From assembly GCF_012272835.1 (NCBI RefSeq), contig NZ_JAAWWK010000003.1, positions 434,001 to 498,000 of the forward strand: a DNA stretch of 64,000 bases, written 5' to 3'. The notes beneath the pieces are model-generated. The model saw nothing but the letters and a program-made list of their open reading frames with translations. It searched no databases and was not told the DNA's origin. Source of the DNA: Spongiibacter thalassae (GTDB lineage: Bacteria > Pseudomonadota > Gammaproteobacteria > Pseudomonadales > Spongiibacteraceae). Positions 3,704 through 24,455 of this stretch are shown here, one piece after another. How positions within the stretch are numbered: position 1 is the first letter of the stretch; the number at the start of each line of letters is the position of its first letter. The translations under genes and the position numbers were made by a program.

Positions 3704-3704
3704 A

Positions 3705-6700: not shown

Positions 6701-6719
6701 CACGTTCTTCATATGCCAT
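3705..6719 (-). CDS. tnpA: Tn3 family transposase
   Basis: A 1004-residue DDE transposase of the Tn3 family that would carry out replicative transposition. The N-terminal half is of the DUF4158 type (RFFFSLNDKELAVGNKF and FHQIKHDLKHVH near the start). The C-terminal catalytic domain shows the three acidic residues in their usual contexts: Asp near residue 691 (HASADGQKFEARR), Asp near 763 (STDTHGVNHVNF) and Glu near 896 (NRGEAYHQLRRA). The length and motifs are complete, so it may be active. The ATG at 6719 is followed by a start typical of the family (MAYEERVQILSDAEQD). Confidence 0.93.
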   Translation of the reverse strand: MAYEERVQILSDAEQDDFYGPPIFTSNDQRFFFSLNDKELAVGNKFRNRGQRYMFFLLLGYFKAKPVALNLGFHQIKHDLKHVHQTVLPGPGFRPFNLSQKENERIYQRIFELCEYQRWSSKGHESALVAHLIKQAKAWSAPRYLFDAAIEYLSGQKIAIPAYSTLQKIISQVVGQEQERLITHVEFELSPDLKQALATLVNGDGTLTLRQLRQYARNFTGTELEKELAVHFHIQHWMPEVNSLLSGLSLSQKNQQHLAERVDYYGAKMKRQSVGNQRLYLLCYLQSRWQQALERIADGFVHHVRQIKQKAKTYAQEAVYKDWQKAAKNVSKAAEVLHLFIDGSIDQQQPFGSVKQKALKLLAEKDLESVCLFLNEQKRSVEEATWQYYDQRDSLREGLLRQLFLCLRFEGSEGTQRLAAVLDHARLDFSAPGVISTANIDGRLPPKKQLPFLQDEGGNFNPGRYEWYLYLQIPDRLNGQLTLPNVVKYRALEADLVSRGRWQREKAELLDQTQLPKLTAEPHKLIEQMARDLEIRFHEVSDYLEQDDNRNIILRNPKGKRLWRLPTASKKYLVNNPFFQQIPTTGVADVLRMVDRDTGFIDCFEHVMGSQSKSRVHEYDLLAILVGNATNQGIYGMAQISDRTYDQLSTIQANYLRLETLNVASDNINNATAKLPIFKHYNIQEDIIHASADGQKFEARRETFKTRYSSKYFGTQKGVSAMSLIANHAAVNARVIGANEHESHHIFDLLMNNSSEIIPDVLSTDTHGVNHVNFALLDLFGYSFAPRYAQVGRVINEMFDVKEGKDQRIQLHLKKPINTKRIMQHRDTIQRIAVSLKERKTTQATLVRKLSGYKKNYPLLEALTEYNRLVKANYLLNYIDDASLRNYVQRALNRGEAYHQLRRAISNVNGDQFRGSSDEEIQLWNECARLVTNAIIYFNSSILSQLLTSFEYQNDDKRIQIVKQASPVAWYNINLKGIYTFELSEKLPDLEELMRTIEGYLPVR

Positions 6720-6780
6720 ATTTTTAGCCTAAAAAAGCTAAATTTTAACCAAAATCGGTGTAAATATGGACTTCAGAGAA

Positions 6781-6861
6781 AGTAATACCATTTGGGAGAC
6801 TACGGATGGCGGGGGCTACAGCGTTTTTTGTCGTTTTTGGACGGAAAATCCCTAGTACCCC
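6781..6861. repeat. Right terminal inverted repeat of Tn3-family element
   Basis: This is the reverse-complement partner of the repeat at 3623-3703. The similarity also extends 6 bp outside the conventional GGGG end: the left flank reads CATGTT and the right flank, reverse complemented, also reads CATGTT. Confidence 0.85.
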
Positions 6862-6892
6862 AACATGAAAGGTGATCCATCCGCCAATTTAG

Positions 6893-6929: not shown

Positions 6930-7589
6930 GTGTCAAGCAAGCAGGCCAAAGCCGCACCGTCCTCTACCGCGAGCAACGCCCGGCCCGGGCGACCGCCCGA
7001 CCCGGCCAAGCAACGCGCCATTCTCGACGCCGCGCGGTCACTGCTGTTCCAGGGGGGCCCGGGTGAGCTCTCCATGGAGGCCGTAGCGCGCCGGGCGGGT
7101 GTCTCGAAGGTGACGATCTACGCCCGCTATGCCAATCGCGAAGCCCTGCTCGACGCCGTAATTGGCGACCAGGCCAACAGCCTGATGGACAGCCTCAATC
7201 TGCAACCGGAAGACGCCTCCAGTGCCCGCAAGGCGCTGTGCAGCTTCGGCCAACAGCTGCTGAGCTTCGTCCTCGGTGAGGAGCACCAGGGCTTCCTGCG
7301 CCTGGTACTGGCCAGCCCCGCTTCTTCCCAGGCGATCCTGGCGCGTATCTACCGCTCGGGACCGGAAGCCACTCACGCGCAGCTGGAACACTGGATGACC
7401 CGGGCCGATGCCGCCGGCCTGCTGCGCATACCGGACCCGCCACAAAGCACGGAGCTGTTGATTGGCATGCTGCTGGGACTGGAGTTGATCCGGCTACTCT
7501 ACGGCCAGCCGGCAAAATTCACGGGCGAGTCCCTGGAAACGCATGTCGAGCAGGTGGTGGACCGCTTCCTCAGCCTGCACGGGACCTGA
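6930..7589 (+). CDS. TetR/AcrR family transcriptional regulator
   Basis: A 219-residue repressor-type protein with a GTG start. A Pro/Ala/Arg-rich tail (RPGRPPDPAKQRAILDAAR) leads into a TetR helix-turn-helix at about residues 30-76, where MEAVARRAGVSKVTIYARY is the recognition region. The C-terminal part is a TetR ligand-binding domain with a LIGMLLGLELIRLLYG helix near residue 180. Its ligand is unknown. The stop overlaps a possible downstream ATG, and the next gene, a phosphoenolpyruvate synthase, starts 83 bp on and is truncated. Composition is clearly GC-richer than the transposons on both sides, suggesting a separate origin. Confidence 0.85.
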   Translation: MSSKQAKAAPSSTASNARPGRPPDPAKQRAILDAARSLLFQGGPGELSMEAVARRAGVSKVTIYARYANREALLDAVIGDQANSLMDSLNLQPEDASSARKALCSFGQQLLSFVLGEEHQGFLRLVLASPASSQAILARIYRSGPEATHAQLEHWMTRADAAGLLRIPDPPQSTELLIGMLLGLELIRLLYGQPAKFTGESLETHVEQVVDRFLSLHGT

Positions 7590-7672
7590 TGGCTCCGGCG
7601 CCATGCCTGCGCGCCACAACGCCTGCCCTGGTCTATCCTGTAGCGGCAAGCCCACAAGCAGGAGATGATGCG

Positions 7673-9025
7673 GTGAACCAACCAGAAACCGTCCTGTGGT
7701 TCGACACCCTTGACCTCTCGTGCCTGCCGCAAGTCGGTGGCAAGAACGCCAGCCTGGGGGAAATGTACCAGCGCCTGAGCGAGGAAGGGATCCGGGTCCC
7801 CTTCGGTTTTGCCACCACGGCGCAGGCCTTCCGCGACTACCTGGCGGACAACCGGCTGGAGGCCCCCATCCGCGAGGCTGTGGCTGCCATGCGTCGAGGC
7901 AGCCAATCGCTCGAAGCCACCGGCGGAGCCATCCGCGAGCTGATCCGCAGGGGGAATTTTTCCAACCGCCAGCGCACCCTGATCACGGGCGCCTACCGCG
8001 AACTCTGTGAGCGCCTGCAGACCCCCTCCCTGGCTGTCGCCGTGCGCAGCTCCGCCACCGCGGAAGACCTGCCCGAGGCTTCCTTTGCCGGACAACAGGA
8101 GAGCTTCCTCAATGTCCGCGGCGAGGAGGCCCTTCTGCAGGCCTGCCGCGAATGCTACGCCTCCCTCTACACCGATCGCGCCATTGCCTACCGGGAAGAG
8201 CGAGGCTTCGAACACGAACAGGTCGCCCTGTCCGTCGGTGTCCAGCAGATGGTGGAATCCGCCGCGGCGGGCGTGATGTTCACCCTGGATACCGAGAGCG
8301 GCTTTCCCGACGTGGTGCTCATCAGTGCTGCCTGGGGCTTGGGGGAAACCGTCGTGAAGGGTTCGGTCAATCCCGACCGCTACATGGCCTACAAGCCCTT
8401 CCTCGAGGAGCGCGCACTGAGCCCCGTGATTGAAGCGAGCGTGGGCAGCAAGCTGGTGAAAATGCGCTATGCGCTACCGGAGGATAGCCAGCCCTCGGAT
8501 GCCGACGATGATCAGGGGCCCACTGTCACCGTCCCTACCAGCACGGCAGAACAACGCAGCCGGGTGCTGGATGACGTAGCGGTCCTGCACCTGGCCCGCT
8601 GGGGAGCCAGAATCGAGGCGCACTACGGGCGGCCCATGGATATCGAGTGGGCCCGGGACAGCGACGGGCAGCTGTTCATTGTTCAGGCCCGGCCGGAAAC
8701 CATAGAATCGCAGAAGGACCGCAGCGTCCTGGTGAGCTATCACCTGAAGGAAAAAGGTCGGGTGCTGCTTGAGGGGGCAGCCGTGGGCAGTGCCATCGCC
8801 GGCGGGCCGGTCTGCGTGGTGGACCGGCCGGGCGATGTCGATGCCTTTCCCGAGGGTGCCATCCTGGTCACCGAGCGCACCGACCCGGACTGGGTACCCA
8901 TCATGCGCTATGCTTGGTATGTATTCAAACAAAAGAATCAACCTCGCAATCTTCGCATGTTCTGTCGTGGTATTCGTGCTCTCGTTTTGGCTGGTGCGCA
9001 GCCAGGTCACTGTGTCAGGATCTAG
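7673..9025 (+). pseudogene. ppsA: Phosphoenolpyruvate synthase, C-terminal half lost
   Basis: The frame encodes the N-terminal ATP/pyruvate-binding domain of PEP synthase: VGGKNASLGEMYQRL near the start, VRSSATAEDLPEASFAGQQE, then HYGRPMDIEWARD and LFIVQARPE. Homology runs to TDPDWVPIMR, the opening of the phosphohistidine domain, and stops at about 8909. The catalytic His motif (normally GGRTCHAAI) and the whole PEP-binding barrel are absent; a full enzyme has about 790 residues. The remaining codons are read through DUF305-gene DNA in the wrong frame. The GTG at 7673 is preferred because AGGAG precedes it by 9 bp; an in-frame ATG at 7589 would add 28 atypical residues. Confidence 0.85.
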
Positions 9026-9311
9026 CTACATGCGAGCAATGATTCCGCACCACTCCATCGCAGTTATGACTTCGGAGCGTGCGCAGATTCGCGACCCCCG
9101 CGTGCGTAAGCTTGCCGACGAAATTATTGGAGCCCAGCGGCGCGAGATCGCCGAAATGCGCTACCTGATCGCTGATGTCTCGGCCGGTAATGTTGTTGAA
9201 AGGATATACGAAGATCCTCCTGCTAAAGTGGGAACGGTGGGCGATGCATTAAGAGGGTCGGCCGTCATTCTGGAAAAATTCGCCAAAGTTCATCTAATTG
9301 CATGTTTTTAA
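8910..9311 (+). pseudogene. DUF305 family protein, truncated at both ends
   Basis: From MLGMYSNKRINLAIFACSVV the frame matches DUF305 membrane-anchored proteins, commonly found beside copper and other metal genes. A hydrophobic segment (LAIFACSVVVFVLSFWLV) is followed by the hallmark YMRAMIPHHSIAVMTSERAQ and the pattern QRREIAEMRYLI. The first membrane segments usual in this family (about 60 residues) are missing because the gene is joined to ppsA. The last 19 codons are not native: they are translated from the inverted end of the 14-kb Tn3 transposon, which begins at 9253-9255. Confidence 0.75.
9253..9286. repeat. Left inverted end of the metal-resistance transposon
   Basis: These 34 bp start GAGGGTCGGCC and end TTCGCCAA. 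They are identical to the reverse complement of 23525-23558; similarity stops right after. The first two bases (GA) may be coincidental, in which case the conventional end starts GGGT at 9255. Confidence 0.85.
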
Positions 9312-9461
9312 TATAGTTTTTTACTACATCTTGATGTCCTTACTAGTCTAGTTAAGCTCACTGCGGACTGTGTGGGAGCCTTACACATCGTAAAAAAATT
9401 AAGACAATATAAGAAAATACCCAGCAGTCGGTCATCTGTGCTCACCGTCCAACTCTTTATT

Positions 9462-10463
9462 TTATTTTGGCTCCGGCGCTTTTGTTTTTTCCTCCAGTAA
9501 ACGATTCATCATATCAGTCTTGATTGAAATTTCTGCTTCCAGTTTGCCTATCGATACCGACGCTTCTGCCTTCCAGGCTTGCAGCTCTTCGTTCAGCTTC
9601 TTAACTTTATCGAGTTCCTCTACTTGAGCTGCGAGCTCGGAAAGTTGAATTTTAAGCGAGTCAGACTCTTCCGCTTTGGAATCCAGATCCGTGGTAAGTT
9701 TACGTTGCTCGGTTTCCAGCTTTGCTGCTGCTTTCTGTATGGAGCCAAGCTCAGCCGCGAGCCGCCCGTTGTCCTTGTTTAACTGCGTGATATCAGATTG
9801 TTTAACTGAAAGAGTTTGATTCAGGGCGCGAATTTCAGACTGAAGCTGTTGGCTGTATTGCTCGTGCTTCCGTTGATCCTGATCGCGCTGTTCTTTTACC
9901 GACTGGCGATAATGCTCCATTGCCTCTCGACTGTGGCGATGTTTCTCTTCCAGTGACTCGATTTGGGTTTGTTTTTCAGCTAATAGCTCTCGAAGCTTTT
10001 CTTCGGTTTGAGTGGCTTTGGCTTCTTTTGCTTTTAGCTCTTCTTCGGAGGCTTTGCTCTCCTTCAGTTCAGCGAGCGTGCTTTGTAATTCGTGTTCTTT
10101 CTCTGAGAACGTTTTATTAATAGAGGCAAGCGAGCTTTCGAGTTCTTGAATTCTACCTGTAAGGGACTGCACTTGGTGCTGATGCTTGGACTGGCTTTCA
10201 TCAATTGCGGCTTGTGCTTCCTGTTTCAGCGCTGAAGCTAAACGACCAATTAGTTCCTTGATGGGCTGACTGAGCAATGCTTCGTCATCCAGGCGGGCCG
10301 AAGCCTCTTCCTCTATCTCTCGTAGGTATCGATGAATGGTGGACTTGGAGCCAGTATTGCCAAGTTCCACGCGAATAGCGTCAATTGAGGGGTTTTCGCC
10401 TCGACGGACCAAGGTTTCACGCGCTTTGGATACCAGTGCTTTGTTGACGCCGCCTCTTGCCAT
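9462..10463 (-). CDS. KfrA-like DNA-binding coiled-coil protein
   Basis: A 333-residue protein of the KfrA_N type. The first about 55 residues (GGVNKALVSKARETLVRRG ... SKSTIHRYLREIEE) form the winged-helix DNA-binding part known from plasmid KfrA. The rest, about residues 75-320, is a nearly unbroken Gln/Glu/Lys-rich coiled coil. On IncP plasmids KfrA is an autorepressor connected to partition; a role in a Tn3 transposon is not established. It is the gene nearest the left end and points toward it. An AGAGGTGG ribosome site precedes the ATG, and the upstream region holds repeated CGTAC motifs that may be its operators. Confidence 0.8.
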   Translation of the reverse strand: MARGGVNKALVSKARETLVRRGENPSIDAIRVELGNTGSKSTIHRYLREIEEEASARLDDEALLSQPIKELIGRLASALKQEAQAAIDESQSKHQHQVQSLTGRIQELESSLASINKTFSEKEHELQSTLAELKESKASEEELKAKEAKATQTEEKLRELLAEKQTQIESLEEKHRHSREAMEHYRQSVKEQRDQDQRKHEQYSQQLQSEIRALNQTLSVKQSDITQLNKDNGRLAAELGSIQKAAAKLETEQRKLTTDLDSKAEESDSLKIQLSELAAQVEELDKVKKLNEELQAWKAEASVSIGKLEAEISIKTDMMNRLLEEKTKAPEPK

Positions 10464-10628
10464 ATACCACCTCTCACTATATTTCGTACTGTATTACGTA
10501 CCACGTATATACATACTATATTATATCGCTTTTCGAGACTTGAATAGCTTAAATTTAACTTTAAATAATCAAGAGTTATTGAATGTCAGGTGGATTTCGA
10601 GGCGGATTCCTTCAAAATTCAGTACGAA
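10464..10628. promoter_or_regulatory. AT-rich kfrA upstream region with CGTAC repeats
   Basis: This strongly AT-rich stretch between kfrA and ynfA carries TTCGTACTG (10483-10491), TACGTACC just after, and CAGTACGAA (10620-10628), which is the exact inverse of the first. Repeated and inverted CGTAC cores are plausible KfrA operators or part of a recombination site. This is inference only. Confidence 0.35.
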
Positions 10629-10960
10629 TTTGGTACATTCCAACCAATCACGATAATACCCATACCGATCAATGCGATGCAGGCTCCCAGCCAGTCCATA
10701 GGAGAAAGTCGTACCCCATCAACCACGCGAAGCCAAACCAACGCTGTCGCCACGTAGACCCCGCCATAGGCCGCATATACCCGACCGCTGGCGGCGGGAT
10801 GCAGTGTTAGCAACCAGACGAATAGCCCAAGGCATAATGCAGCAGGTAACAGAAGCCAGGTAGATCCCCCCTTGCGCAGCCAAAGATAAGGCAAAAAACA
10901 CCCTACGATTTCCGCAATCGCGGTGAACACGAAAAGGCCAGCAGTTTTGATTAACAGCAT
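10619..10960 (-). CDS. ynfA: YnfA family (UPF0060) small membrane protein
   Basis: A 113-residue protein with four predicted membrane helices. The family hallmarks are [18 protein letters not shown] in helix 1, the [19 protein letters not shown] segment in the middle, and [15 protein letters not shown] in the last helix. YnfA proteins are related in fold to small multidrug resistance transporters, but their substrate is unsettled. It starts 3 bp after the czcD-like stop codon, so the two are very likely translated from one message. Confidence 0.9.
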
Positions 10961-10963
10961 ACG

Positions 10964-11851
10964 TCACTCCTTTGGCACGTCATCACGACAAGGCTCATTG
11001 TGTAGTTCAAACTCAACGGTTGTGTGACTTAACTCAAACTCGGCCAGCACAGCGGACAAACGGCGTTTTAAATTTCTTTGATCCTCCAGTGATACATCTG
11101 CTGCAAGTTCGATATGAACCGTTAATACATGGCTTTCGCCATCCAGCGACCACAAATGCAGATGGTGAAAATGTTTAAACTCAGAAATGCTTTTAAGTTT
11201 CTCTTCGATTCCTTTTGCAATGCCTTGATCGGGTACGCCCTGTAAAAACAGCTTTAAGGTTGAGCCGATGTTTCGAACAACATTCACCAAAATAAATAAG
11301 GTGAAGCCGATCGCTAAAATGGGGTCGAGGATCGGCCACTCCACAAACATCAACACAACTGACACAATAAAAACAGCAACCCATCCGAGGACGTCCTCTA
11401 GCAAATGCCAGTTGAGCACTTTTTCATTCAGTGTCTCCCCTTTGCTGAGCTTAAATGCGGCGAACCCATTCACGGCAATACCGAAAATGGACAGCGCCAA
11501 CATACCTTCTGTTACAGGCATTTCCGGATTGAAAAGACGAGGAATGGATTGATATAACACCCAACCTGAACCGGCGATAAGGACAATACCATTGATGAGC
11601 GAACCCAATAGCGATAAACGTTTGTAGCCGTAGGAAAATGAACTGGAAGCGGGCTTTTTTCCCAGTTTCGCGAGGACCCACGCCAAACCAATAGACAAAC
11701 TATCTCCGAGGTCGTGGACGGCATCCGCCATAATCGCGGTGCTATTGGTCAGCACCCCGCCAATAAACTCAATAATCGTGAATCCAACATTGAGAAAGAA
11801 TGCCCAGCCGATTCGTGTACTACTGTTGTCGTCGTGTGAATGAGAATGCAT
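10964..11851 (-). CDS. czcD: Cation diffusion facilitator, CzcD/ZitB type
   Basis: A 295-residue CDF proton/metal antiporter that would move Zn(II), Co(II) or Cd(II) from cytoplasm to periplasm. The N-terminus is His-rich (MHSHSHDD). Six membrane helices hold the HD-HD metal site of zinc-type CDFs: HDLGD in helix 2 (ADAVHDLGDSLSIG) and HLLED in helix 5. The C-terminal cytoplasmic domain has HFHHLHLWSLDGESHVLTVH, the typical dimeric metal-sensing fold. An AGGAACA site precedes the ATG. A terminator separates it from the upstream czcCBA genes, so it may have its own promoter or rely on read-through. Confidence 0.9.
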   Translation of the reverse strand: MHSHSHDDNSSTRIGWAFFLNVGFTIIEFIGGVLTNSTAIMADAVHDLGDSLSIGLAWVLAKLGKKPASSSFSYGYKRLSLLGSLINGIVLIAGSGWVLYQSIPRLFNPEMPVTEGMLALSIFGIAVNGFAAFKLSKGETLNEKVLNWHLLEDVLGWVAVFIVSVVLMFVEWPILDPILAIGFTLFILVNVVRNIGSTLKLFLQGVPDQGIAKGIEEKLKSISEFKHFHHLHLWSLDGESHVLTVHIELAADVSLEDQRNLKRRLSAVLAEFELSHTTVEFELHNEPCRDDVPKE

Positions 11852-11894
11852 TGTTCCTCCAGCTCTTTTCTTTTTCTGTTTAGATTCAAAAAAA

Positions 11895-11920
11895 GTCGGC
11901 TCCGGCTTGTGCCGGAGCCA
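11895..11920 (-). terminator. Rho-independent terminator after czcA
   Basis: On the minus strand a perfect 9-bp GC stem (GGCTCCGGC/GCCGGAGCC, loop of four) is followed by G-A-C and seven T. It lies 6 bp beyond the czcA stop codon and would end the czcCBA message before the CDF gene. Confidence 0.85.
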
Positions 11921-11925
11921 GACGA

Positions 11926-15054
<3,129 letters not shown>

Positions 15055-16026
15055 TTAGTGTTCGTGTTCGGCTTCGGATTTTTCGATATCGGCTTTGATC
15101 AGGTAGCTGTTTTTACTGACATATTCATCGCCGGACTCAAGCCCATCGACGACCTCATAAAAATGGTCGTCACTTTGACCCAGCACGAGCGGTTTAAAAC
15201 GATATTCATCATTGATCTTTACAAAAACACCCTGCCGACCACCAAGTATTTGCACCGACTCTTTTGTAACAGCCAAAGAAACTGGAAAGCGACCGACCTG
15301 TACACGCGCTTCTACCATCATTCCCGGAGATAAGGTTTGCTTGCTGTTGTCCAGTTTGACTCGCGCTAACTGATAAGGGGATTCCAGCGAGGGCACAATA
15401 TGATTTACTGTGGATTCGACACTGCCATCGGCAGTCAGAATATGGACGTCCTGACTTTCTGCAACCGAGGACTGCTGAGCGGGATAGACCCGCAGTTCCG
15501 CCCACACAGTGTCAAAGTTAGCAATGGAAAACAGAATTTGATCCTGGGTTACTTCGCCGGTGTTGGCGTGACGCTGAACGATGCGGCCTGAAATAGGCGA
15601 GTGGAGTTGGTAAGTCTTAAGGCTTTCATTGGATTCAATTTCCGCCAACAGATCACGGGTTTTTACTCGATCACCAATGGTCACACGTACAGATTTGACT
15701 AAGCCTTCGAAGCGGGCACGCACATGAATTAATTGTTCTGGCCCCGACACCAACGAGCCGTAAACAGTAATGGTTTGATTAAGTTCCTGCGAACCTACAC
15801 GACTGGTTACGATCCCCACTTGCTGTGCCATCTCGCCATTAATACGACTGCTGTTTTCTTCGCCGTGGCCATGCTCATCCTCTCCATCATCCTCATGGCC
15901 ATATTCTTTGTGATCTGCCGAGGGATTCTCTTCGTGATTAATATGGTCGCCAGCCGCGTATAGGTAAGTGCTGAAAACAAGGATTAAGACTGTAAGACCG
16001 GTGATAATTGCATTTTTCATAGTCAT
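15055..16026 (-). CDS. czcB: CzcB-type periplasmic adaptor protein
   Basis: A membrane fusion protein of about 323 residues linking CzcA to the outer-membrane channel. The N-terminus has a signal/anchor (IITGLTVLILVFSTYLYAA), followed by a His/Asp/Glu-rich segment (HKEYGHEDDGEDEHGHGEE) likely to bind metal. Then come a barrel-sandwich/lipoyl domain (VRARFEGLVKSVRVTIGD) and the beta-barrel part (TLSPGMMVEARVQVG). The start ATG at 16026 (MTMKNAI) is chosen because CAGGAA lies 5 bp upstream; an upstream in-frame ATG at 16053 is possible. A 20-bp gap separates it from the end of czcC. Confidence 0.92.
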   Translation of the reverse strand: MTMKNAIITGLTVLILVFSTYLYAAGDHINHEENPSADHKEYGHEDDGEDEHGHGEENSSRINGEMAQQVGIVTSRVGSQELNQTITVYGSLVSGPEQLIHVRARFEGLVKSVRVTIGDRVKTRDLLAEIESNESLKTYQLHSPISGRIVQRHANTGEVTQDQILFSIANFDTVWAELRVYPAQQSSVAESQDVHILTADGSVESTVNHIVPSLESPYQLARVKLDNSKQTLSPGMMVEARVQVGRFPVSLAVTKESVQILGGRQGVFVKINDEYRFKPLVLGQSDDHFYEVVDGLESGDEYVSKNSYLIKADIEKSEAEHEH

Positions 16027-16073
16027 AAATTCCTGAGGTCTGATGGTGATCAAACCCGGTGTAAACGATTGAT

Positions 16074-17345
16074 TTAGCGGTTAAGAGCTTCACTGGATAG
16101 CTTTTCTATCAGCGCCTGACAGATGAGAGCTGTCGATGCCGCATCGATACGCGCCTGCTTGGTCGCCAGCAACTCTTCCTGAGCGGCAATCAAATCGAGA
16201 TAGCGATAACGACCATTTTCGTAAGCTTCACGGGTTAATTTAAGTGCGTTTTCTAGCGCTGGGATCACCACATTTTGGGTTTTATTGGCGGCCGCGATGC
16301 TTTGCTTTCTGAGCGACCAGGCTTCAAAAAGTTGGGCATGCAAACGCAAGAGCAGATCCTGTCGGGCATAATCCACGGCATTGCGATTGGCCAGAGCCGC
16401 TTTCACTTCACCGCTGTTTCTCTTATTAGAGAACAAGGGAATGGAGAGCCCCACGGTGAATGCTGAATCGCCTGTTTCTTCGAAGCGTTTGATGCCTGCA
16501 CGCCACGTCAGATCACTGCGTCCACCGGCGCGAGCCAATGTCACTGCGGCATCCCTGATCCGCGCCTCACTTGCAAACACCTGAATAGTCGGGGAAGTTT
16601 TTATTCGCGCATACAGCTGCTCAAAGCCTGAATTTTCTCCGAATTCAAAAAGGCTCCCCTCCAGTGTGCTAAATGCCGGGGTGGTGTCACCCCAAAACCG
16701 TGCGAGCTGCACTTTCTGGCGCTGAAACTGTTCCTCCAACGAAGCAAGACGGATTTCCGCACGCGCAACGGCGGCTTGCCCACGCATGACTTCCGCTTCA
16801 GGTGCCGCTCCCTGTTTGGAGCGTGTTTTGAGGGTTTTTAACAACGATTGGGACAGTGCTAGAGATTCCTCAGCGAGCCGAATGTTGGCCTGGGTTGCCA
16901 AGCCCTCTATATAGGCGGTCGTCAGCTCACCGAGCACATCAAGGGTAGTGGCTTGTTGTTCCCATTCCGCCTGATTGATACGAGCATCTGTATAGGAAAC
17001 GCGGGCCTGACGTTTACCTGCCAGTTCAATCACTGACGATAGCGCCAGTGTGGTTTCTGCTGAATCATATCCTGCCGTACTGCCGGATCCAGCGAAGTTT
17101 TCTACCTCAAGTTCAAATGCCATCGCTGGGCGTAAGGCGCTGGTTTGCCTTCGGGCGCTCAGCGCTTCCTGTGTGAATCTGTATTGGTAGAGTTGTGGAT
17201 TGTTTGACAGCGTGCGGGCTAGCGCGTCATTTAGAGTCAGCTTGGTATCGGCGTACGCAGCATTTGCCGTGATGGTCAAACTGCAGAGTAGAAAAGCAAG
17301 CCAAGCACAGGGCTTATGGCACCTGTAAAAAGTGAGTAATTGCAT
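16074..17345 (-). CDS. czcC: CzcC-type outer-membrane efflux protein
   Basis: A 423-residue TolC-family channel protein. After a signal peptide (AWLAFLLCSLTITANAAYA) come two repeats of the efflux-protein coiled-coil domain: LTLNDALARTLSNNPQLYQYR near residue 37, and REAYENGRYRYLDLIAAQEE near 375. It is the first structural gene of the czcCBA operon and forms the outer conduit of the pump. Length and motifs are complete. Confidence 0.92.
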   Translation of the reverse strand: MQLLTFYRCHKPCAWLAFLLCSLTITANAAYADTKLTLNDALARTLSNNPQLYQYRFTQEALSARRQTSALRPAMAFELEVENFAGSGSTAGYDSAETTLALSSVIELAGKRQARVSYTDARINQAEWEQQATTLDVLGELTTAYIEGLATQANIRLAEESLALSQSLLKTLKTRSKQGAAPEAEVMRGQAAVARAEIRLASLEEQFQRQKVQLARFWGDTTPAFSTLEGSLFEFGENSGFEQLYARIKTSPTIQVFASEARIRDAAVTLARAGGRSDLTWRAGIKRFEETGDSAFTVGLSIPLFSNKRNSGEVKAALANRNAVDYARQDLLLRLHAQLFEAWSLRKQSIAAANKTQNVVIPALENALKLTREAYENGRYRYLDLIAAQEELLATKQARIDAASTALICQALIEKLSSEALNR

Positions 17346-17372
17346 GGATAAGTCCTAATATAAGTCGTAATT

Positions 17373-17384
17373 CCGCACGTGCGG
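17373..17384. repeat. Perfect palindrome in the czcI-czcC gap
   Basis: CCGCACGTGCGG is a 12-bp perfect palindrome in the 60-bp gap between the czcI-like gene and czcC. It could form a short hairpin in the message that tunes czcCBA relative to czcI, or be a protein site; there is no direct evidence for either. Confidence 0.35.
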
Positions 17385-17405
17385 GTAAAAAACGGTACTT
17401 AGGGC

Positions 17406-17771
17406 TTATGCTTTAGGAGGGCGCAGGATGGTTTCGAAGGTATTGGGAAAAGCGCTTTCCGAATAAAAGGAAACAGGTGATGAACTCTTCGTCAATAAAA
17501 GCTGATCGGTAGAGACTAGAATAGCGGGACAAAAATGAGCGTGACCGTGGCAGCAGTGATGACAATCCAATGTCGAAGAGGCCGACGTATCTGTAGTAAG
17601 AGTTTTGACGTCGTGTTTTTCAACTTCAAGCACGCCAAGATGTTGATGGGCCTCGTCGAAAGTCACATGCTCAGAACTTGACTGGTGCAGTTGATGTGCG
17701 TCGCCCATAGACATACCGGATTGCAAAACAATCAGTGCAAGCAAAAAATATGTCAGGACACGTTTAAGCAT
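17406..17771 (-). CDS. Small periplasmic metal-binding protein, CzcI-like
   Basis: A 121-residue protein with a signal peptide (MLKRVLTYFLLALIVLQSG), then a His-rich stretch and a dense Cys/His cluster DCHHCCHGHAHFCPA near residues 83-97. It resembles the small CzcI/CopL-type proteins that precede heavy-metal efflux operons and modulate them, but the match is by position and composition rather than a firm family signature. It stands directly upstream of czcC in the same direction, so it probably heads the operon. Confidence 0.65.
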   Translation of the reverse strand: MLKRVLTYFLLALIVLQSGMSMGDAHQLHQSSSEHVTFDEAHQHLGVLEVEKHDVKTLTTDTSASSTLDCHHCCHGHAHFCPAILVSTDQLLLTKSSSPVSFYSESAFPNTFETILRPPKA

Positions 17772-17811
17772 TTTTTAATCTATCTGATCACTTGATCTCG
17801 AAAACAGGTCG

Positions 17812-18708
17812 CTATCGTAGCAGAAGTATACGCCGAGCGCCGTTTAAAACAATAAAGCCAATAATAACCCCAACCACCAAATCCGGAATGTGTGATCCCG
17901 TCATCGCCACTAGAATGCCGGCAATGATGACGCCGGTATTGGCCAACACATCATTGGCTGAGAATATCCAGCTGGCCTTCATATGTGCCCCTTGGTTACG
18001 CGATTTGAAGATTAGCAAGAGGCAAGCAATATTCGCTACCAAGGCAACGGCGCCTGCCCCCATCATGAGTACTGAAACGGGTTCGCTCCCGTAGACAGCT
18101 CGCCTAAAGACTTCGAGTAGGACGCCCACAGCAAGCGCGAGCTGTAGCCAGCCAGAGAAATGGGCAGCCTTGAGCTTAAGTCGAGCGGCCTTACCCACCG
18201 CATACAGCGACGCACCATAGACCGCAGCATCGGCAAACATATCCAGCGAGTCAGCGATTAAGCCAGTGGATTGCGCCACAATGCCCACGCCAAACTCAAG
18301 TGCAAACATGACCGCGTTGATTGCCAGCAACCACCGTAATACCCGCGCCTCTCTTACTTCGTCGGACTTTGCCGTTACCTGGGCTTGCCGAACGGCATCA
18401 AAATCTACCGGCTCCAATGAAATCAGTTGTGCCCGAAGACCAACAGAGATCATGGTTTTTTCCACTGTCTCCGCAATATCTGGGTGATATATCCGCACCC
18501 TGCGGTTGGAAATGTCGAATTCGAAGGTGAGCCCCTCATCAAAACTAGCAAATGCAGTGCGAATCAGGTTCTCTTCTGACGGGCAATCCATATCAGTGAC
18601 ATGAAACACGCTTACGTGGCTGGCTCCAGCCTGCATATCGCTGTTCGCTTCAGCCTGTGTTGGCGCTGTGCTGCTAGAGCCGCAGCACACTTTCGAATCT
18701 GTTGACAT
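17812..18708 (-). CDS. CDF cation transporter with N-terminal metal-binding domain
   Basis: A 298-residue protein. The N-terminus has CC and a HMA-like domain with a DMDCPSEE motif (about residues 39-46), which would load or sense metal. Five to six membrane helices of the cation efflux family follow; helix 2 has DSLDMFADAAVYG and helix 5 NDVLANTGVIIAG. The metal site is therefore D/D with N/D, unlike the HD-HD site of the CDF at 10964, and specificity may differ. It is transcribed divergently from the MerR regulator through a ZntR/CadR-type promoter, which suggests Cd, Pb or Zn induction. Confidence 0.85.
   Translation of the reverse strand: MSTDSKVCCGSSSTAPTQAEANSDMQAGASHVSVFHVTDMDCPSEENLIRTAFASFDEGLTFEFDISNRRVRIYHPDIAETVEKTMISVGLRAQLISLEPVDFDAVRQAQVTAKSDEVREARVLRWLLAINAVMFALEFGVGIVAQSTGLIADSLDMFADAAVYGASLYAVGKAARLKLKAAHFSGWLQLALAVGVLLEVFRRAVYGSEPVSVLMMGAGAVALVANIACLLLIFKSRNQGAHMKASWIFSANDVLANTGVIIAGILVAMTGSHIPDLVVGVIIGFIVLNGARRILLLR
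17825..17852 (-). promoter_or_regulatory. Candidate sigma-70 promoter for czcI-czcCBA
   Basis: On the minus strand TTGTTT (17847-17852) and TATACT (17825-17830) are separated by 16 bp, about 55 bp before the czcI-like ATG. It overlaps the 3' end of the preceding CDF gene. Confidence 0.35.
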
Positions 18709-18736
18709 AGCCGACTCTTGTTAGATGGATATACCA

Positions 18737-18767
18737 AGGCTACACTCTATAGTAACAATAGAGTCAA
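18737..18767 (-). promoter_or_regulatory. MerR-type promoter/operator of the CDF gene
   Basis: On the minus strand, -35 TTGACT (18762-18767) and -10 TAGCCT (18737-18742) are 19 bp apart, the long spacer activated by MerR regulators. An inverted repeat ACTCTAT-N7-ATAGAGT (18744-18764) fills the spacer. The layout closely follows the zntA and pbrA promoters (established knowledge). Confidence 0.8.
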
Positions 18768-18778
18768 GGGGGAAACCT

Positions 18779-19204
18779 ATGAAAATTGGTGAGCTCGCTA
18801 AACGCAGTGGCTGTTCGATCCAAGCGATACGCCACTACGAAAAGGAAGGCTTAATCTCCGAGCCTGCTCGTACTGACGGCAACTTCCGTATATATAGTAC
18901 TGGCGCGCTTGAAAAATTGTCATTCATCAAGAATTGCCGTGCGCTGGATCTGACGTTAAGCGAAATCAAACACCTCATCTCGCTACAACACTCACCAGGC
19001 ACACCGTGTGAAGCGGTGAATGACATGATTGATGCTCACCTGCACATTGTCGAGACCCGTATCACGGATCTCCAAAATCTTCAGCGTGATCTAAAGCGGT
19101 TGCGACATAAATGTGGTCGCGCACGATCTATCGATCAGTGCGGAATATTAAATGAACTATCGCCAAAATCGCAGCATACGTTTACAGATAACAAAAGGAA
19201 GTAA
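18779..19204 (+). CDS. Cd(II)/Pb(II)/Zn(II)-responsive MerR regulator
   Basis: A 141-residue MerR protein. The N-terminal helix-turn-helix is MKIGELAKRSGCSIQAIRHYEKEGLI; the C-terminal metal loop CGRARSIDQCGIL matches the CadR/PbrR pattern, and a further Cys sits in the PGTPCEAV segment before the dimer helix. The ATG at 18779 is preferred over an upstream in-frame start at 18725, which would place codons across the operator. GGGGGAAA before the ATG is the ribosome site. It is divergent from the CDF gene and 2 bp ahead of the recombinase GTG, so it may also drive recombinase expression. Confidence 0.9.
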   Translation: MKIGELAKRSGCSIQAIRHYEKEGLISEPARTDGNFRIYSTGALEKLSFIKNCRALDLTLSEIKHLISLQHSPGTPCEAVNDMIDAHLHIVETRITDLQNLQRDLKRLRHKCGRARSIDQCGILNELSPKSQHTFTDNKRK

Positions 19205-19206
19205 GG

Positions 19207-20457
19207 GTGACAGACCTTGATCACTATATCCGGGCGGCAACACGCGATAACACGCGTTTAAGTTACCGTGCGGCTGTTGAACATTTTGAAAGTCACTGGG
19301 GTGGTTTTCTTCCTGCGACCGCCGATAGCGTGGCTCGCTATTTGGTGGATTATGCAAATACTTTGTCAGTAAACACACTGCGTCAACGACTAGCTGGTCT
19401 AGCGGCCTGGCATCTTGATCAGGGCTTTCCTGACCCGACCAAAGCCCCGCATGTAAAAAAAGTGTTAAAGGGCATCGCCGAATTGCACCCAGTCGTCCCA
19501 AAGCAAGCCAAACCAATTCAGCTTGACCAGCTAACGCTACTGGTAAGCTCGTTTGATCATTTTATTGAAACTGGCTCACCAAAAGAAGCGCTGCAATCGA
19601 TCCGGGATAAAGCCCTATTGTTGATCGGTTTCTGGCGTGCGTTCCGCAGTGATGAATTAGCCCGACTTAGTGTAGAGCATATTCAGGCGGAGTCTGGAAA
19701 AGGGATGGACATATTTGTCCCCCGCAGTAAAGGCGATCATTCTAGACTGGGGCGGCGATACAAGGCTCCTGCATTAAAACAACTTTGTCCTGTCGAAGCT
19801 TATTTAGATTGGGTCAGTGCGGCGCAAATAAAGGTCGGGCCGGTTTTTCGTTCGATTAATCGTTGGGGACATATATCCGAAGACGCACTTCATCCCGCAA
19901 GCATCATCGGCATTATTCAGCAGTGCTGTTCACGAGCCGACATAGATGAGGCGAACTTGTTTAGCAGTCACTCTCTAAGAAGAGGTTTCGCCACCTGGGC
20001 AAATGCGCAAGGTTGGGATACGAAATCCTTGATGGAATACGTGGGTTGGAAAGATGTTCAGTCCGCGATGCGATACATAGACTCGCCAGATCCATTTGCT
20101 CAGTATCGTACAGAAACGGGAATTGCTACGGTAATTGCGCCAATCGAACAAGATGAACAAAAAACCATCCAAACGCTATTAGAGGTTCTTCTCGTTCTAG
20201 AGCCTTATAGCAAGCTTTCCAAGCGCACTGACAGAGCAAAAAAATTAATCGAGGGGTATTGCTTGTCGCCGTTGTCAATGAATAAAGTCAATTTAGAAGG
20301 AAGGCATTACGAGATTATGGTCGAGCACAGTGACTACGATTCATTGGATGAAATCCTAGATGAACTACTTCACCGAATGCACGAGATCGCGTCAGAGAAT
20401 CAATGCATGCTGGAGGTTAGCGTTCGCGATCCTCGCACCGATAAACACTGGGATTAA
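19207..20457 (+). CDS. Tyrosine recombinase of the transposon
   Basis: A 416-residue phage-integrase-family recombinase with a GTG start. An N-terminal SAM-like core-binding domain (DNTRLSYRAAVEHFESHW, about residues 14-31) precedes the catalytic domain. Catalytic residues in context are Arg in FRSDELARL (about 147), His and Arg in HSLRRG (about 255 and 258), Trp in VGWKD replacing the second His, and Tyr in MRYID (about 290). About 110 extra residues follow the Tyr, which is unusual. Placed directly before a Tn3 transposase (29 bp), it most likely resolves cointegrates, as TnpI does in Tn4430. The resolution site is not identified. Confidence 0.88.
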   Translation: MTDLDHYIRAATRDNTRLSYRAAVEHFESHWGGFLPATADSVARYLVDYANTLSVNTLRQRLAGLAAWHLDQGFPDPTKAPHVKKVLKGIAELHPVVPKQAKPIQLDQLTLLVSSFDHFIETGSPKEALQSIRDKALLLIGFWRAFRSDELARLSVEHIQAESGKGMDIFVPRSKGDHSRLGRRYKAPALKQLCPVEAYLDWVSAAQIKVGPVFRSINRWGHISEDALHPASIIGIIQQCCSRADIDEANLFSSHSLRRGFATWANAQGWDTKSLMEYVGWKDVQSAMRYIDSPDPFAQYRTETGIATVIAPIEQDEQKTIQTLLEVLLVLEPYSKLSKRTDRAKKLIEGYCLSPLSMNKVNLEGRHYEIMVEHSDYDSLDEILDELLHRMHEIASENQCMLEVSVRDPRTDKHWD

Positions 20458-20486
20458 CAGACTCTGTTTTTAAAGGAATTTGAAAT

Positions 20487-23400
20487 ATGAGCAGTCTGCA
20501 TGAAACTGCCTATCCTCGACTGCGCAACACCATCACAGATAAAGAGCTCAAGGAGTATTACACTCCAACACCAGAAGAACTAATACTGATCTCATCAGAA
20601 AAAAGGCCGATTCTACGTGTCGGGCTCATTCTGAATTTAAAATTACTTCAACGACTCGGATACTTTGTGCCTGTGGCCTCAGTGCCACGCTCGATTATGC
20701 AGCATGTGCTCGATGCGATGGGTATAAAACGACCGATTACTCTTAAACAGCTCAAAGACTACGACCGGTCGGGGTCTCGATCACGTCAGCAACAACAATT
20801 AAGGGAATATCTCGGCATAAAGCCATTCGATTTAAGCGACCAGCCTTGGCTCACTCAAATTGCTGAAAATGCATCAGAGACAAAAGAGATGCTCGCAGAT
20901 ATCATCAACGTGATGCTAGAGGAATTGGCGCATCATCATTTCGAGCTGCCCGGATTTACAGTCCTCAAACGAATCGCTCGCGCAGCAAGAAATAAAGTCA
21001 ATGATGCCTGTTTTCGCGAGATTGGACTGGATCTCTCGCCAGAAGCCAAACAAAAAATTGATGAATTACTGAACCCGTCCGATGGCGCTTACAGTGCCTG
21101 GAATATTCTTAAACGTGAACCCAAAAAGCCGGGTAACAAAGAAGTTCGAAGTTATCTTCAGCATGTTCATTGGCTCCAAACATTAGGTGAAACTCTCCCT
21201 GAGGCCAACATTCCGGTTGTGAAATATCGGCAGTTTGCCCTAGAGGCTCGTGCATTAACAGCCCCCGAAATGGCACGACTCAAAGTCCATAAGCGCTATG
21301 CACTTGCCGTAATATTGATTCGCCAACAACATAGTAAAGCCTTGGACGATGTTGCAAACTTGTATATCAAGATGCTGCGAAGCATGGAAGCTGGTGCCCA
21401 GGCCGCATTGAACAAATATATCCTGGAGCACCAAAAACAAATCGATGCCTTGATTGCAAAATTTCGCGACGTTCTTATCGCTTACGACCAAGATTCTGAA
21501 CAATTAGCCAAACTGCAAGCGATTGGAGGTGTCTTGGGCGATGACGCTAGCGCGCTGATTGATCGTTGCAATCAGCACATTGCTTATGCCGGAAACAATT
21601 ACTACCCCTTCATGTTAAGCAATTACCGCCAGAAACGCGCTTTGCTTTTCAATTGTCTGGATATACTGGATTTGCAATCAAGCTCCAGCGATACCAGCAG
21701 CACGACATTGCTTATCCTGCTAAAGAGTTTGCGTAGTACTCGATCAGAATTTATCAGCGAAGAGACACTTAATCAGCATTTGCCTGAGCCATTTGATACC
21801 AGTTGGTTTACAGAAAAATGGCGCAAGCTGATCCTGTCGAACACGAAGAACGAAACCGGAATAACTCAACGACTTTTCCATAGAAAATACCTTGAACTCT
21901 GTTTGTTGTTACACATCAAGCACGAGCTCTCATCGGGCGATTTGTATATTCCGTTTAGCGTCGAATTTGATGACTATCGCGAGCAACTGGTGGACGATGA
22001 AACATTGGATGACGAATTAGACGAGTATAGTGAACAGGTGGAGATGCCACTGAATAATGCGCATTTGTTTGTTACTAACTTAAAGCAGGAGCTATCAGAT
22101 CGATCAAAACAGGTAGACGAGCGATTTCCTGCCAATCTTCACGCCTCGATCAAAGAGGGTAAGCTGTCGATCAGTCCGATAAGAAGTGAACAACCGTTAG
22201 CCGAACTGCAAAAACTCGATGCACTGATTACGGAAAACCTCCCTGAAGTAAGCATTATTGACATCCTTACCGACACTGAAAAGTGGCTTGGTCTGCATAA
22301 ACTATTTGGGCCGTTGTCAGGGAATGAATTACGTATAGATGAACCCGAAAAGCGTTTCATCACCACGTTATTTTGCTATGGCTGTAATCTAGGGCCAGTT
22401 CAAACAGCCAAGTCTGTGAAGAATATCAGCAGAAAGCAGATTGCCTGGCTCAACCTTAGACATGCTTCCGAAGATCGCTTGGACAAAGCGATCACCCAAG
22501 TCGTCAATGCTTACAATAAATTTGATCTACCTAAATACTGGGGCAGCGGCAAGCACGCGTCGGCTGATGGAACGATGTGGGATCTGTACGAACAGAACCT
22601 GTTAACGGAATACCATATTCGATATGGCGGTTATGGTGGTATTGGTTACTACCATGTTTCCGATACCTACATTGCATTGTTCAGTCATTTTATTCCATGC
22701 GGTGTCTATGAAGCGGTGTACATACTAGACGGACTAATGAACAACAAATCTGACATCCAGCCCGATACGTTACATGGCGACACACAGGCGCAAAGCTATC
22801 CAGTATTTGGTTTGTCACATTTGCTGGGCATCAATCTCATGCCTCGAATCCGCAACATTCAGGATTTGTTGCTTTTCCGACCTGACAATCGATATCGATA
22901 CAAAAGTATTGAGCCCTTGTTTGCAGGAAGCATAGACTTCAAATTAATCGAGCGGCATCTTCGAGATATGCTTCGCGTCGTCATATCGATCAAGAAAGGC
23001 AAAATTACCGCCTCAACGATTTTGCGTAGGCTTGGGACCTACAGTCGTAGAAACAAGCTATATTTGGCATTTAAAGAGCTGGGAAAGGCGATAAGAACAC
23101 TCTTTTTACTGCGCTATATCGATGAAATTGAGCTTCGAAAAACCATTCAATCAGCCACAAACAAAAGTGAGGAATTTAACGGTTTTATTAAATGGCTCTT
23201 TTTTGGAGGTGAGGGCATCATTGCAGAAAACGTCCGTCATGAGCAGCGGAAAATCGTTAAATACAACCAGCTAGTAGCTAATATGGTGATTCTCTATAAC
23301 GTTGAGAAAATGACCCATGTTCTGAAGCATTTGTCGAAAGAGGGTGTGATAATCAACAAAGAGCTGCTTAATGGGCTCTCACCATACCGAAATTCTAATA

Positions 23401-23495
23401 TTAATCGCTTTGGTGACTACAATTTGGATCTGGAAAAAGTAATTCCGCCGCTGGATTTTGGAATCAAGATACTGGAGACAGAAAAAGCGAAATAA
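20487..23495 (+). CDS. tnpA: Tn3 family transposase of the metal-resistance transposon
   Basis: A 1002-residue Tn3-type DDE transposase with a DUF4158 N-terminus (TDKELKEYYTPTPEELILI). Catalytic acids in context: Asp near 693 (HASADGTMWDLYE), Asp near 765 (LHGDTQAQSYPVFG), Glu near 895 (NKSEEFNGFIKW). It is only distantly similar to the transposase at 3705. The gene is complete and ends 29 bp before the right inverted end, the normal arrangement for Tn3 elements, so it should act on the ends at 9253 and 23558. Confidence 0.93.
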   Translation: MSSLHETAYPRLRNTITDKELKEYYTPTPEELILISSEKRPILRVGLILNLKLLQRLGYFVPVASVPRSIMQHVLDAMGIKRPITLKQLKDYDRSGSRSRQQQQLREYLGIKPFDLSDQPWLTQIAENASETKEMLADIINVMLEELAHHHFELPGFTVLKRIARAARNKVNDACFREIGLDLSPEAKQKIDELLNPSDGAYSAWNILKREPKKPGNKEVRSYLQHVHWLQTLGETLPEANIPVVKYRQFALEARALTAPEMARLKVHKRYALAVILIRQQHSKALDDVANLYIKMLRSMEAGAQAALNKYILEHQKQIDALIAKFRDVLIAYDQDSEQLAKLQAIGGVLGDDASALIDRCNQHIAYAGNNYYPFMLSNYRQKRALLFNCLDILDLQSSSSDTSSTTLLILLKSLRSTRSEFISEETLNQHLPEPFDTSWFTEKWRKLILSNTKNETGITQRLFHRKYLELCLLLHIKHELSSGDLYIPFSVEFDDYREQLVDDETLDDELDEYSEQVEMPLNNAHLFVTNLKQELSDRSKQVDERFPANLHASIKEGKLSISPIRSEQPLAELQKLDALITENLPEVSIIDILTDTEKWLGLHKLFGPLSGNELRIDEPEKRFITTLFCYGCNLGPVQTAKSVKNISRKQIAWLNLRHASEDRLDKAITQVVNAYNKFDLPKYWGSGKHASADGTMWDLYEQNLLTEYHIRYGGYGGIGYYHVSDTYIALFSHFIPCGVYEAVYILDGLMNNKSDIQPDTLHGDTQAQSYPVFGLSHLLGINLMPRIRNIQDLLLFRPDNRYRYKSIEPLFAGSIDFKLIERHLRDMLRVVISIKKGKITASTILRRLGTYSRRNKLYLAFKELGKAIRTLFLLRYIDEIELRKTIQSATNKSEEFNGFIKWLFFGGEGIIAENVRHEQRKIVKYNQLVANMVILYNVEKMTHVLKHLSKEGVIINKELLNGLSPYRNSNINRFGDYNLDLEKVIPPLDFGIKILETEKAK

Positions 23496-23513
23496 GACTT
23501 ATATATCAATAAT

Positions 23514-24455
23514 TTAAGGTACAATTGGCGAATTTTTCCAGAATGACGGCCGACCCTCAGGGTGCTCGATACGAAAGCCGATGGAAAAGGGTTTGGCTTC
23601 CATATACACCCCCTGATCGCGCAGGGTGGCGAAGGTGTCCCGGGCGCTGTGGCCAATGGCCAGAATAATATGCTTGCTGTGCAGGGTTTCTCCGCTGCTC
23701 AGGGTTACCCCGGACACTTGCCCATTACCGTCAGCGGTCGCCTCCCGGTGAAATGCCACAACCTTGCTGTCAAAACGAATTTCACCGCCCAGTCGAATTA
23801 TCTCTGCGCGAATATTCTCCACCATTTTGACCAACTTGAAGGTGCCGATATGGGGCTTGCTCACCATAAGGATTTCTTCCGGCGCCCCGGCTTTGACGAA
23901 CTCGGTCATTACCTTGCGGCCGAGAAAGCGCTTGTCCTTCACCTGGCTGTACAGCTTGCCGTCAGAAAAGGTTCCCGCGCCACCTTCGCCGTATTGCACA
24001 TTGGATTCGGTATTGAGCTTGCGCTTGCGCCACAGTCCCCAGGTATCCTGTGTACGCTGACGTACATCCTGCCCGCGATCCAGCACAATCGGCTTCAACC
24101 CCATCTGCGCCAGAATCAATGCGGCCAGGATGCCACAGGGGCCAAAGCCCACAACAATAGGGCGCTGCTGATCAGGTTTGGGAAAATCACTGACCTGGGC
24201 GACAAAAGCGTATTCCATGTTCGGACTTGGGGACAAACCCCGTGATAGCAGCTTCCCTTCCTGCTCCGCTGGCAGACAGACATCGACGATGTAAATCAGC
24301 TGAATCGCGTGTTTTTTCCGCGCATCATAGCTACGTTTGAACACCGTATACGACAGTAGGTCAGACTCCGGTACGCCCAACCGAGCGATTACGGCCTTGC
24401 CCAAGGCGTCGTCCGGGTGGTTGAGGGGGAGTTTGATGTCATTAAGTCTGATCAT
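23514..24455 (-). pseudogene. FAD-dependent dehydrogenase, C-terminal part lost to transposon
   Basis: The first about 300 residues match the COG2509 group of uncharacterised FAD-dependent dehydrogenases (about 540 residues when whole). An N-terminal domain is followed by the dinucleotide fold VVGFGPCGILAALILAQMG near residue 102, the family motif NVQYGEGGAGTFSDGKL near 150, and ILAIGHSARDTF near 270. Native sequence stops at FSIGFRIEHPE. The remaining 12 codons are read from the inverted end of the Tn3 transposon at 23558. The missing C-terminus is not found elsewhere in the window. Confidence 0.85.
23525..23558. repeat. Right inverted end of the metal-resistance transposon
   Basis: This is the exact reverse complement of 9253-9286. 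It also codes, on the minus strand, for the foreign tail (GRPSFWKNS) of the broken FAD-dependent dehydrogenase, which places the insertion point inside that gene. Confidence 0.85.

Follow-up and report, generated by a model that had tools for sequence, protein, structure and literature searches.

The locus analysed here raises the question of how a transposon of the Tn3 family separates its cointegrates when it combines a KfrA-like gene at one end with a tyrosine recombinase gene next to the transposase gene at the other. The transposon occupies positions 9253-23558 (14,306 bp, one unit) of a 64,000-nt stretch of Spongiibacter thalassae DNA, the whole of which is called the window below, on a contig of 554 kb in a genome of 4.4 Mb. 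Very probably it is a Tn3-family transposon of the Tn4651/TnXax1 type that moves replicatively, and its cointegrates would be resolved by the tyrosine recombinase TnpS and the KfrA-like protein, a TnpT homologue, at the resolution site rst. As a system the element is ordinary, a well-formed additional member of the TnpS/TnpT (Tn4651) group; what it offers beyond the group is the C-terminal domain of its TnpS, which spans two recombinase classes. Labels of the type L000 and G000 denote the loci and genomes compared.

The transposon and its ends

9253-9286, + strand: left terminal inverted repeat, starting GAGGG (repeat search; relatives have the same end with 5-bp duplications)
19207-20457, + strand: tnpS, tyrosine recombinase with C-terminal domain, 416 aa (Pfam, alignment, structure prediction)
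20487-23495, + strand: tnpA, Tn3-family transposase, 1002 aa (Pfam, NCBIfam)
23525-23558, - strand: right terminal inverted repeat (repeat search)

The terminal inverted repeats are 34 nt long each and 100% complementary. TnpA contains the Pfam domains PF01526 (E=1.2e-144) and PF13700, and scores 711 bits with the NCBIfam model transpos_Tn3 (cut-off 500). The characters of the Tn3 family are thus present: a DDE-type transposase of about 1000 aa, long terminal inverted repeats and a 5-bp target duplication, the last in the relatives only. An element of equal length (14,306 bp), with 13 differences, was found at a different genomic place in Zhongshania marina, with the direct repeat TATAT around it. 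Since this near-identical copy sits elsewhere between TATAT repeats, the ends 9253 and 23558 are true transposition ends, and a chance composite could be ruled out. The single Tn3-family unit described in an earlier note, which had been made from the sequence alone, is confirmed by the perfect repeats, the full transposase and the Z. marina copy, and the absence of a serine resolvase was also borne out, none being found among the open reading frames and domains of the unit.

Target duplications of 5 bp were seen in five related copies: TATAT in Z. marina, AACAT in Teredinibacter, GGGAT in G373, and AATAA and AAGAA in Spongiibacter pelagi. For GGGAT, AATAA and AAGAA the two ends of each copy come from separate contigs, and their pairing is ours.

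The KfrA-like protein and the resolution site

9462-10463, - strand: tnpT homologue, 333 aa, KfrA_N and coiled coil (Pfam, homology to TnpT)
10493-10518, + strand: rst accessory box, TnpT-type (alignment/model; role by homology to the Acc. site described in excerpts of PMC4619425)
10554-10590, + strand: rst core region, inner core 10563-10580 (alignment/model)
10620-10628, + strand: rst distal conserved CAGTACGAA motif (alignment/model)
10470-10633, + strand: the whole rst resolution site (nhmmer model)

KfrA-type proteins are best known on plasmids. The protein encoded at 9462-10463 carries the KfrA_N domain (PF11740, E=2.7e-25) and a coiled coil, suggested by SMC-type matches under the cut-off. 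This order of KfrA_N and coiled coil is shared with the KfrA proteins of plasmids, but the gene lies here inside a transposon, beside rst, and not in a plasmid replication or maintenance region. Over residues 1-257 the KfrA-like protein shares 44.6% identity with a protein whose annotation reads 'Tn4652, cointegrate resolution protein T', and Pfam finds KfrA_N in that protein too. Judged by this resemblance, the KfrA-like protein is a TnpT homologue, the putative partner of TnpS. In L101, as in the Tn4652-like locus L006, the tnpT and tnpS homologues are adjacent genes that diverge from each other. One paper of the open-licence literature names both KfrA and TnpT, with kfrA appearing there as a plasmid locus.

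The earlier note had regarded the KfrA-recombinase pair as a distinct Tn3 module and had named TnpS/TnpT as a contrast to it; the pair is in fact the known TnpS/TnpT resolvase of the Tn4651/TnXax1 group, and the element itself is of this type. Among the roles suggested there for KfrA (repression, maintenance, assistance of recombination), the assistance of recombination holds for a TnpT homologue and the captured plasmid gene does not. That a plasmid-type KfrA was captured and represses or maintains the element, with no bearing on the recombinase, is highly improbable: its N-terminal KfrA_N domain and the plasmid habitat of such proteins agree with it, but the protein matches TnpT in position and sequence, TnpT has the same domain, compact divergent tnpT-tnpS units exist and a conserved rst lies upstream of the gene, and a plasmid maintenance gene was ruled out on the identity, the domain and rst. 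Autoregulation by TnpT is compatible with resolution by TnpS and TnpT. It follows for annotation that 'KfrA-like' genes within Tn3 elements can be TnpT.

The rst model was trained on 19 distant tnpT upstream regions, from which the window and its close relatives were excluded; TnpT homologues of >53% or <34% identity, identical stretches and the loci L117, L121, L115, L005 and L063 were omitted as well, L005 (TnpT 52%) because its upstream region shows no core. The only significant match in the 64-kb window was 10470-10633 (70 bits, E=5.5e-21), the next one having E=10. The earlier note had proposed to look for a conserved recombination core site near kfrA or the recombinase. An accessory box of the type ATTACATACCATGTAATTACATACTA is common to most tnpT upstream regions, a core palindrome around GATAAT/ATTATC is found about 90-130 bp upstream of tnpT in most homologues, and many of the regions have a GTACGAA-like motif 45-60 bp beyond the core. 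In Teredinibacter the core palindrome is perfect over 16-bp arms. The distal motif of the window also codes, on the opposite strand, for the C-terminal end of YnfA. The whole rst adjoins tnpT and is separated from tnpS by the cargo, which shows where the resolution site is located when cargo parts tnpT from tnpS.

Comparison with the known members of the group

Of the features of the TnpS/TnpT group, the element has the tyrosine recombinase TnpS, a tnpT divergent to tnpS, and rst in the interval between them. The nearest named group among the matches listed is TnXax1, TnpA being 55.9% identical to TnXax1-labelled transposases, and seven plasmid records more than 60% identical to TnpA lie outside these matches, so that a nearer named relative is possible. 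The element resembles the TnXax1/Tn4651 subgroup in its divergent tnpT/tnpS, rst and the 5-bp duplications of its relatives, and the inverted repeat of TnXax1 starts with GAGG, as here (PMC4619425, in excerpts). According to the same excerpts TnXax1 has no genes between tnpS and tnpT, whereas the interval here is 8.7 kb and holds metal cargo. A figure legend for TnXax1 in the cited literature swaps the roles of TnpS and TnpT.

TnXocp1, TnPsd1 and TnSml1, compared by their description in PMC4619425 only, are alike in the close linkage of tnpA and tnpS, the passengers in the tnpS-tnpT interval and the czc cargo; the excerpts make no mention of a merR-tnpS junction. Passengers in this interval were reported there earlier, and the placing of cargo between rst and tnpS has been published for TnXocp1. 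Since published members carry passengers in the interval, adjacency of tnpS and tnpT is not required of the group. The Tn4652-like locus L006 of Pseudomonas veronii has a TnpS 59% identical over 298 aa, the TnpT of 44.6% identity described above and the same rst layout; its TnpS, unlike that of the window, lacks the C-terminal domain, and the locus (12.8 kb) yielded no tnpA.

As the earlier note had anticipated, kfrA, the recombinase and the transposase occur together in relatives with other cargo. The absence of kfrA from close relatives had been named there as a refutation, and this was checked. TnpT of at least 74% identity is present in 5 of the 11 genomes with a close TnpA (best segment at least 87% identical, fragments and the window's own genome counted), it has diverged in three (37-52% identity), and in the remaining three none was found, two of these being metagenome bins with a TnpA fragment only. 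Separately, the TnpA fragments of the metagenome bins L046 and L047 (Halioglobus and Cycloclasticus) are the same in identity, length and flank, a likeness that suggests a binning or shared-contig artefact.

The cargo and its borders

10619-10960, - strand: YnfA/UPF0060 family protein (PF02694; NF002586 above cut-off)
10964-11851, - strand: cation diffusion facilitator (PF01545; TIGR01297 above cut-off)
11926-15042, - strand: CusA/CzcA heavy-metal RND pump (TIGR00914, 1549 bits)
15055-16053, - strand: RND periplasmic adaptor, CzcB type (best NCBIfam matches below cut-offs)
16074-17345, - strand: outer-membrane efflux protein (PF02321)
17406-17771, - strand: small open reading frame (no Pfam match)
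17812-18708, - strand: cation-efflux protein with N-terminal extension (PF01545)

The cargo block of about 8.6 kb consists mostly of metal-efflux genes and lies between rst and tnpS; tnpS and tnpT are therefore not directly adjacent in the window (spacing 8.7 kb). Compact relatives (Idiomarina L042, Klebsiella L097, Proteus L098) carry tnpT, rst, tnpS and tnpA as one uninterrupted run. Cargo is found between rst and tnpS in the window, Z. marina, Teredinibacter, Variovorax (chromate genes), G274 and G367. The Teredinibacter element (29,113 bp) has about 12.4 kb of extra cargo between the positions corresponding to 10964 and 10977 of the window. The nucleotide homology of the left arm to the window stops at 10586 in G373 and at 10667 in the first Spongiibacter copy; in the second Spongiibacter copy it stops at 10600 and resumes at 10982. 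On the right side the homology starts at 19234 (L040) and 19225 (L044), just within tnpS. From these borders it is plausible that the cargo differences arose by exchange at rst, through recombination between related elements. A GTAC-like sequence near tnpS was considered as second cargo border and dropped, being present in two relatives only.

The merR-tnpS junction

18744-18764, + strand: dyad ACTCTATAGTAACAATAGAGT between the efflux gene and merR (sequence)
18779-19204, + strand: MerR regulator, Cd(II)/Pb(II)-type (TIGR02047, 165 bits, above cut-off; queried from 18773)

The dyad is presumably a CadR/PbrR-type operator, and dyads similar to it are present in L037, L038 and L039. In the window and L037 2 bp separate the merR stop from tnpS, in L039 11 bp, and in L038 the two genes overlap by 14 bp; merR abuts or overlaps tnpS in four of the six close relatives with sequence there, and the other two, L040 and L044, lack a merR at tnpS. 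In a distant Lysobacter element a merR of mercury type (by eye) ends 10 bp before tnpS, with the mer genes on the other strand. A metal-linked, joint expression of merR, tnpS and tnpA might be surmised from these junctions, though hardly more than that. The mercury-stimulated transposition of Tn501 is a precedent, and the merR-tnpS-tnpA junction allows a direct test of metal-linked transposition.

The proposed resolution pathway

TnpA would fuse the donor and the target into a cointegrate. TnpS would then cut and rejoin at the rst core, and TnpT, a KfrA-like coiled coil expected to bind DNA, would occupy the accessory box and help TnpS; this reaction at rst would separate the two copies. The interval between rst and tnpS would serve as a cargo bay, with tnpS about 8.6 kb from its site. 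Thereby tnpS would be away from the rst promoter of the compact relatives; here it follows, nearly gapless, a merR of the Cd/Pb type. The binding roles and the resolution are assigned by homology in this scheme, and it builds on ends, genes, an rst sequence, cargo differences and junctions read directly from the DNA.

Several observations weigh against this pathway. The window copy has no target duplication, its flanks being CATTAA on the left and AGGGTG on the right, and the outer arms of its core are imperfect. The upstream region of the Agarilytica TnpT homologue (L005, 52%) has no recognisable core. In a Gilvimarinus element tnpS is broken, and a search of the whole genome gave no TnpT. 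Finally, no MerR gene abuts tnpS in L040, L044, L053, L099, G274 and G367, and metal control is therefore not general. As regards the target duplication, the window copy interrupts two genes, a FAD-oxidoreductase gene at its right end and a DUF305 gene at its left. A search of the genome for the other half of the FAD-oxidoreductase gene, made with a query from the Z. marina locus L084 and no positive control, came back empty. The missing half makes a deletion next to the element likely, and this deletion is the likely cause of the absent duplication.

A C-terminal domain shared by TnpS and serine resolvases

20092-20457, + strand: TnpS C-terminal region, homologous to serine-resolvase extensions (profile comparison)

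In TnpS the Phage_integrase domain (PF00589) covers residues 128-293 of 416 in Pfam, without any Resolvase match, and R144, R147, H255, R258, W281 and Y290 are invariant in eight of eight aligned sequences. Since the Cre-type homology spans residues 34-295 only, the tail after about residue 297 is real; it has about 119 residues, close to the 110 or so of the earlier note. The protein thus consists of a catalytic part to about 297 and a C-terminal domain at about 321-416. AlphaFold (eight sequences, mean pLDDT 71) predicted a separate beta-alpha-beta-alpha-beta unit at 321-407, and the tail modelled alone had a mean pLDDT of 81, the averages over ten residues being 81-94 from residue 31 onward.

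The long serine resolvases encoded by Tn3 elements (approx. 310 aa, with an extension of about 110 aa; PMC12217951, in excerpts) have a homologous C-terminal domain, and differ in their catalytic part, a serine recombinase (PF00239) unrelated to the tyrosine recombinase TnpS. In the profile-profile comparison (hhalign) the TnpS tail matched the serine-resolvase extension with probability 99.3 and E=1.5e-20 over 92 columns. The TnpS-tail model matched seven of seven serine enzymes tested (36 to 56 bits); all seven had been preselected as carriers of the extension, six of them from plasmid matches to the extension of the seventh, and the result therefore shows homology, not frequency. By these comparisons the TnpS tail is homologous to the extension of the long serine resolvases, one putative uncatalogued domain of about 95 aa joined to two unrelated recombinase chemistries. 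It keeps conserved positions, including a near-terminal W, across serine and tyrosine enzymes of Pseudomonadota and Bacillota.

A search for the tail among the loci compared returned TnpS and serine resolvases only. The TnpS-tail model, run on 369 genomes of the class, gave six places in five genomes (five TnpS, one serine resolvase). The serine-tail model, run on 398 genomes of the phylum, a sample overlapping with the former, also gave six places in five genomes: four TnpS, that of the window included, and two serine resolvases, of which the one in L169 is broken. With one serine extension as query 747 of 72,556 plasmid records matched at E<=0.001, a number that includes redundant plasmids and may include TnpS tails. 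In the tail tree the tyrosine-type tails could not be shown to form one clade, nor was one clade rejected (AU p=0.266), which allows for one fusion or several. The TnpS tails of Cupriavidus L095 and Burkholderia L096 group with serine-resolvase tails in a weakly supported part of this tree; also by eye they look like serine-resolvase tails, and tnpA is convergent at both loci.

The TnpS tail had no match of note in Pfam, PHROGs and NCBIfam, the serine-resolvase extension no convincing sequence match in the PDB (best E 0.012), and the predicted fold no Foldseek match at or below 0.001. The best VIA hit reached Z 8.7, and the many hits included chains of Cas2 and eIF2-alpha; this reflects the common ferredoxin-like arrangement only, and no relative is claimed. 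An extension of about 110 aa is mentioned on some resolvases in the available parts of PMC12217951, with no function assigned, and no statement that TnpS shares it was found in the open-licence literature. The shared domain turns that extension into a testable module, and this is the part worth following.

The domain may be a resolution-control module that moves between enzymes and has been joined to two unrelated recombinases, a reading we put forward tentatively and rate somewhat below even. Since the domain sits on two unrelated chemistries, it would act on the choosing, the synapsing or the timing of cointegrate or dimer resolution and not on strand exchange, and if it works alike on both enzyme types, a common control of cointegrate resolution would be indicated. 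Rather doubtful is that the tail is a dispensable leftover, or a dimerisation aid without a specific role. In work on ISXc5 a resolvase without its approx. 115 C-terminal residues was reportedly used as an active enzyme, and tailless TnpS proteins occur within the same clade as tailed ones, both in keeping with dispensability; the positions conserved in serine and tyrosine enzymes of two phyla, the near-terminal W among them, speak against it.

The tail and the closeness of tnpA

A further explanation, which we consider unlikely, is that the tail ties TnpS to TnpA or its complex and is kept only where tnpS adjoins tnpA. It was examined on 46 TnpS rows, of which 16 are tailed and 29 tailless, L102 having a frameshifted tail. 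Rows not spanning about query residues 30-265 entered neither the tree nor the counts (L007 4506-5732, both L039 pieces, L077 2585-3448, L148, L149, L153, L155, L156 and duplicates). L102, first labelled tailless, was later counted as tailed and adjacent on account of its frameshifted tail, with a DUF4158 piece after it.

TnpS is 4-90 bp from tnpA in all 16 tailed rows, versus no tnpA within 200 bp in any of the 29 tailless rows; the tailless row L076/L038 is 519 bp from the end of the tnpA of another element. The tailed TnpS met by recombinase queries and examined were all next to tnpA (G098, G274, two in G367, and L095-L099, the last being 5 of 40 listed plasmid rows). In the even sample of the class each of the five places with a tailed TnpS (own genome included) abuts a transposase gene or fragment, and in a dropped L039 piece the tail part adjoins tnpA. 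Moreover, tailed and tailless rows are intermixed inside one 100/100 clade of the core-domain tree, where the tail needs four changes with L102 as tailed (five as first labelled).

Against a tie to TnpA, approx. half of the tailed rows entered via the TnpA search only, which is a bias, and the supported independent tail/tnpA pairs are two (four on all branches). At least six concordant contrasts are needed for significance, and the association therefore cannot reach it. The dropped L007 copy, cut at residue 235, is tailless yet 34 bp from tnpA, and in two of the tailed rows, L095 and L096, tnpA is convergent and not in one operon with tnpS. Tailed serine enzymes have a Tn3 transposase, or what is left of one, close by in L049, L051, L054 and L162-L167, but no tnpA was found near those of L160, L168, L169 and L170, in loci reaching 1.5-4.5 kb on each side. 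From these serine resolvases the domain would belong with resolvases, a link to TnpA being possible.

Three of these loci and their neighbour genes may be mentioned separately. In L160 (925-3277) the tailed serine resolvase adjoins a KfrA_N coiled-coil gene, and no transposase was found in the locus. In L169 (enzyme broken) and L170 tailed serine resolvases stand beside ParA-like ATPase genes, so named by eye; these are perhaps plasmid-type resolution systems.

The neighbourhood of the transposon

On the left side of the transposon, window positions 7589-9311 hold a truncated-looking N-terminal open reading frame of the pyruvate-phosphate-dikinase type and a DUF305 fragment, ending at or near the element; these fragments point to an earlier rearrangement. 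The region 3617-6867 holds another transposase gene of Tn3 type (3705-6719), distant from tnpA (about 24% identity) and flanked by 96-bp inverted repeats (84%), and no resolvase was seen inside this unit. A further copy of this transposase, of nearly equal score, is present about 44 kb upstream on the same contig. At 1870-3119, inverted repeats of 182 bp and 94 bp (88% and 82%) extend over two facing transposase-like open reading frames, and the one of them that was examined matches HTH_Tnp_1.

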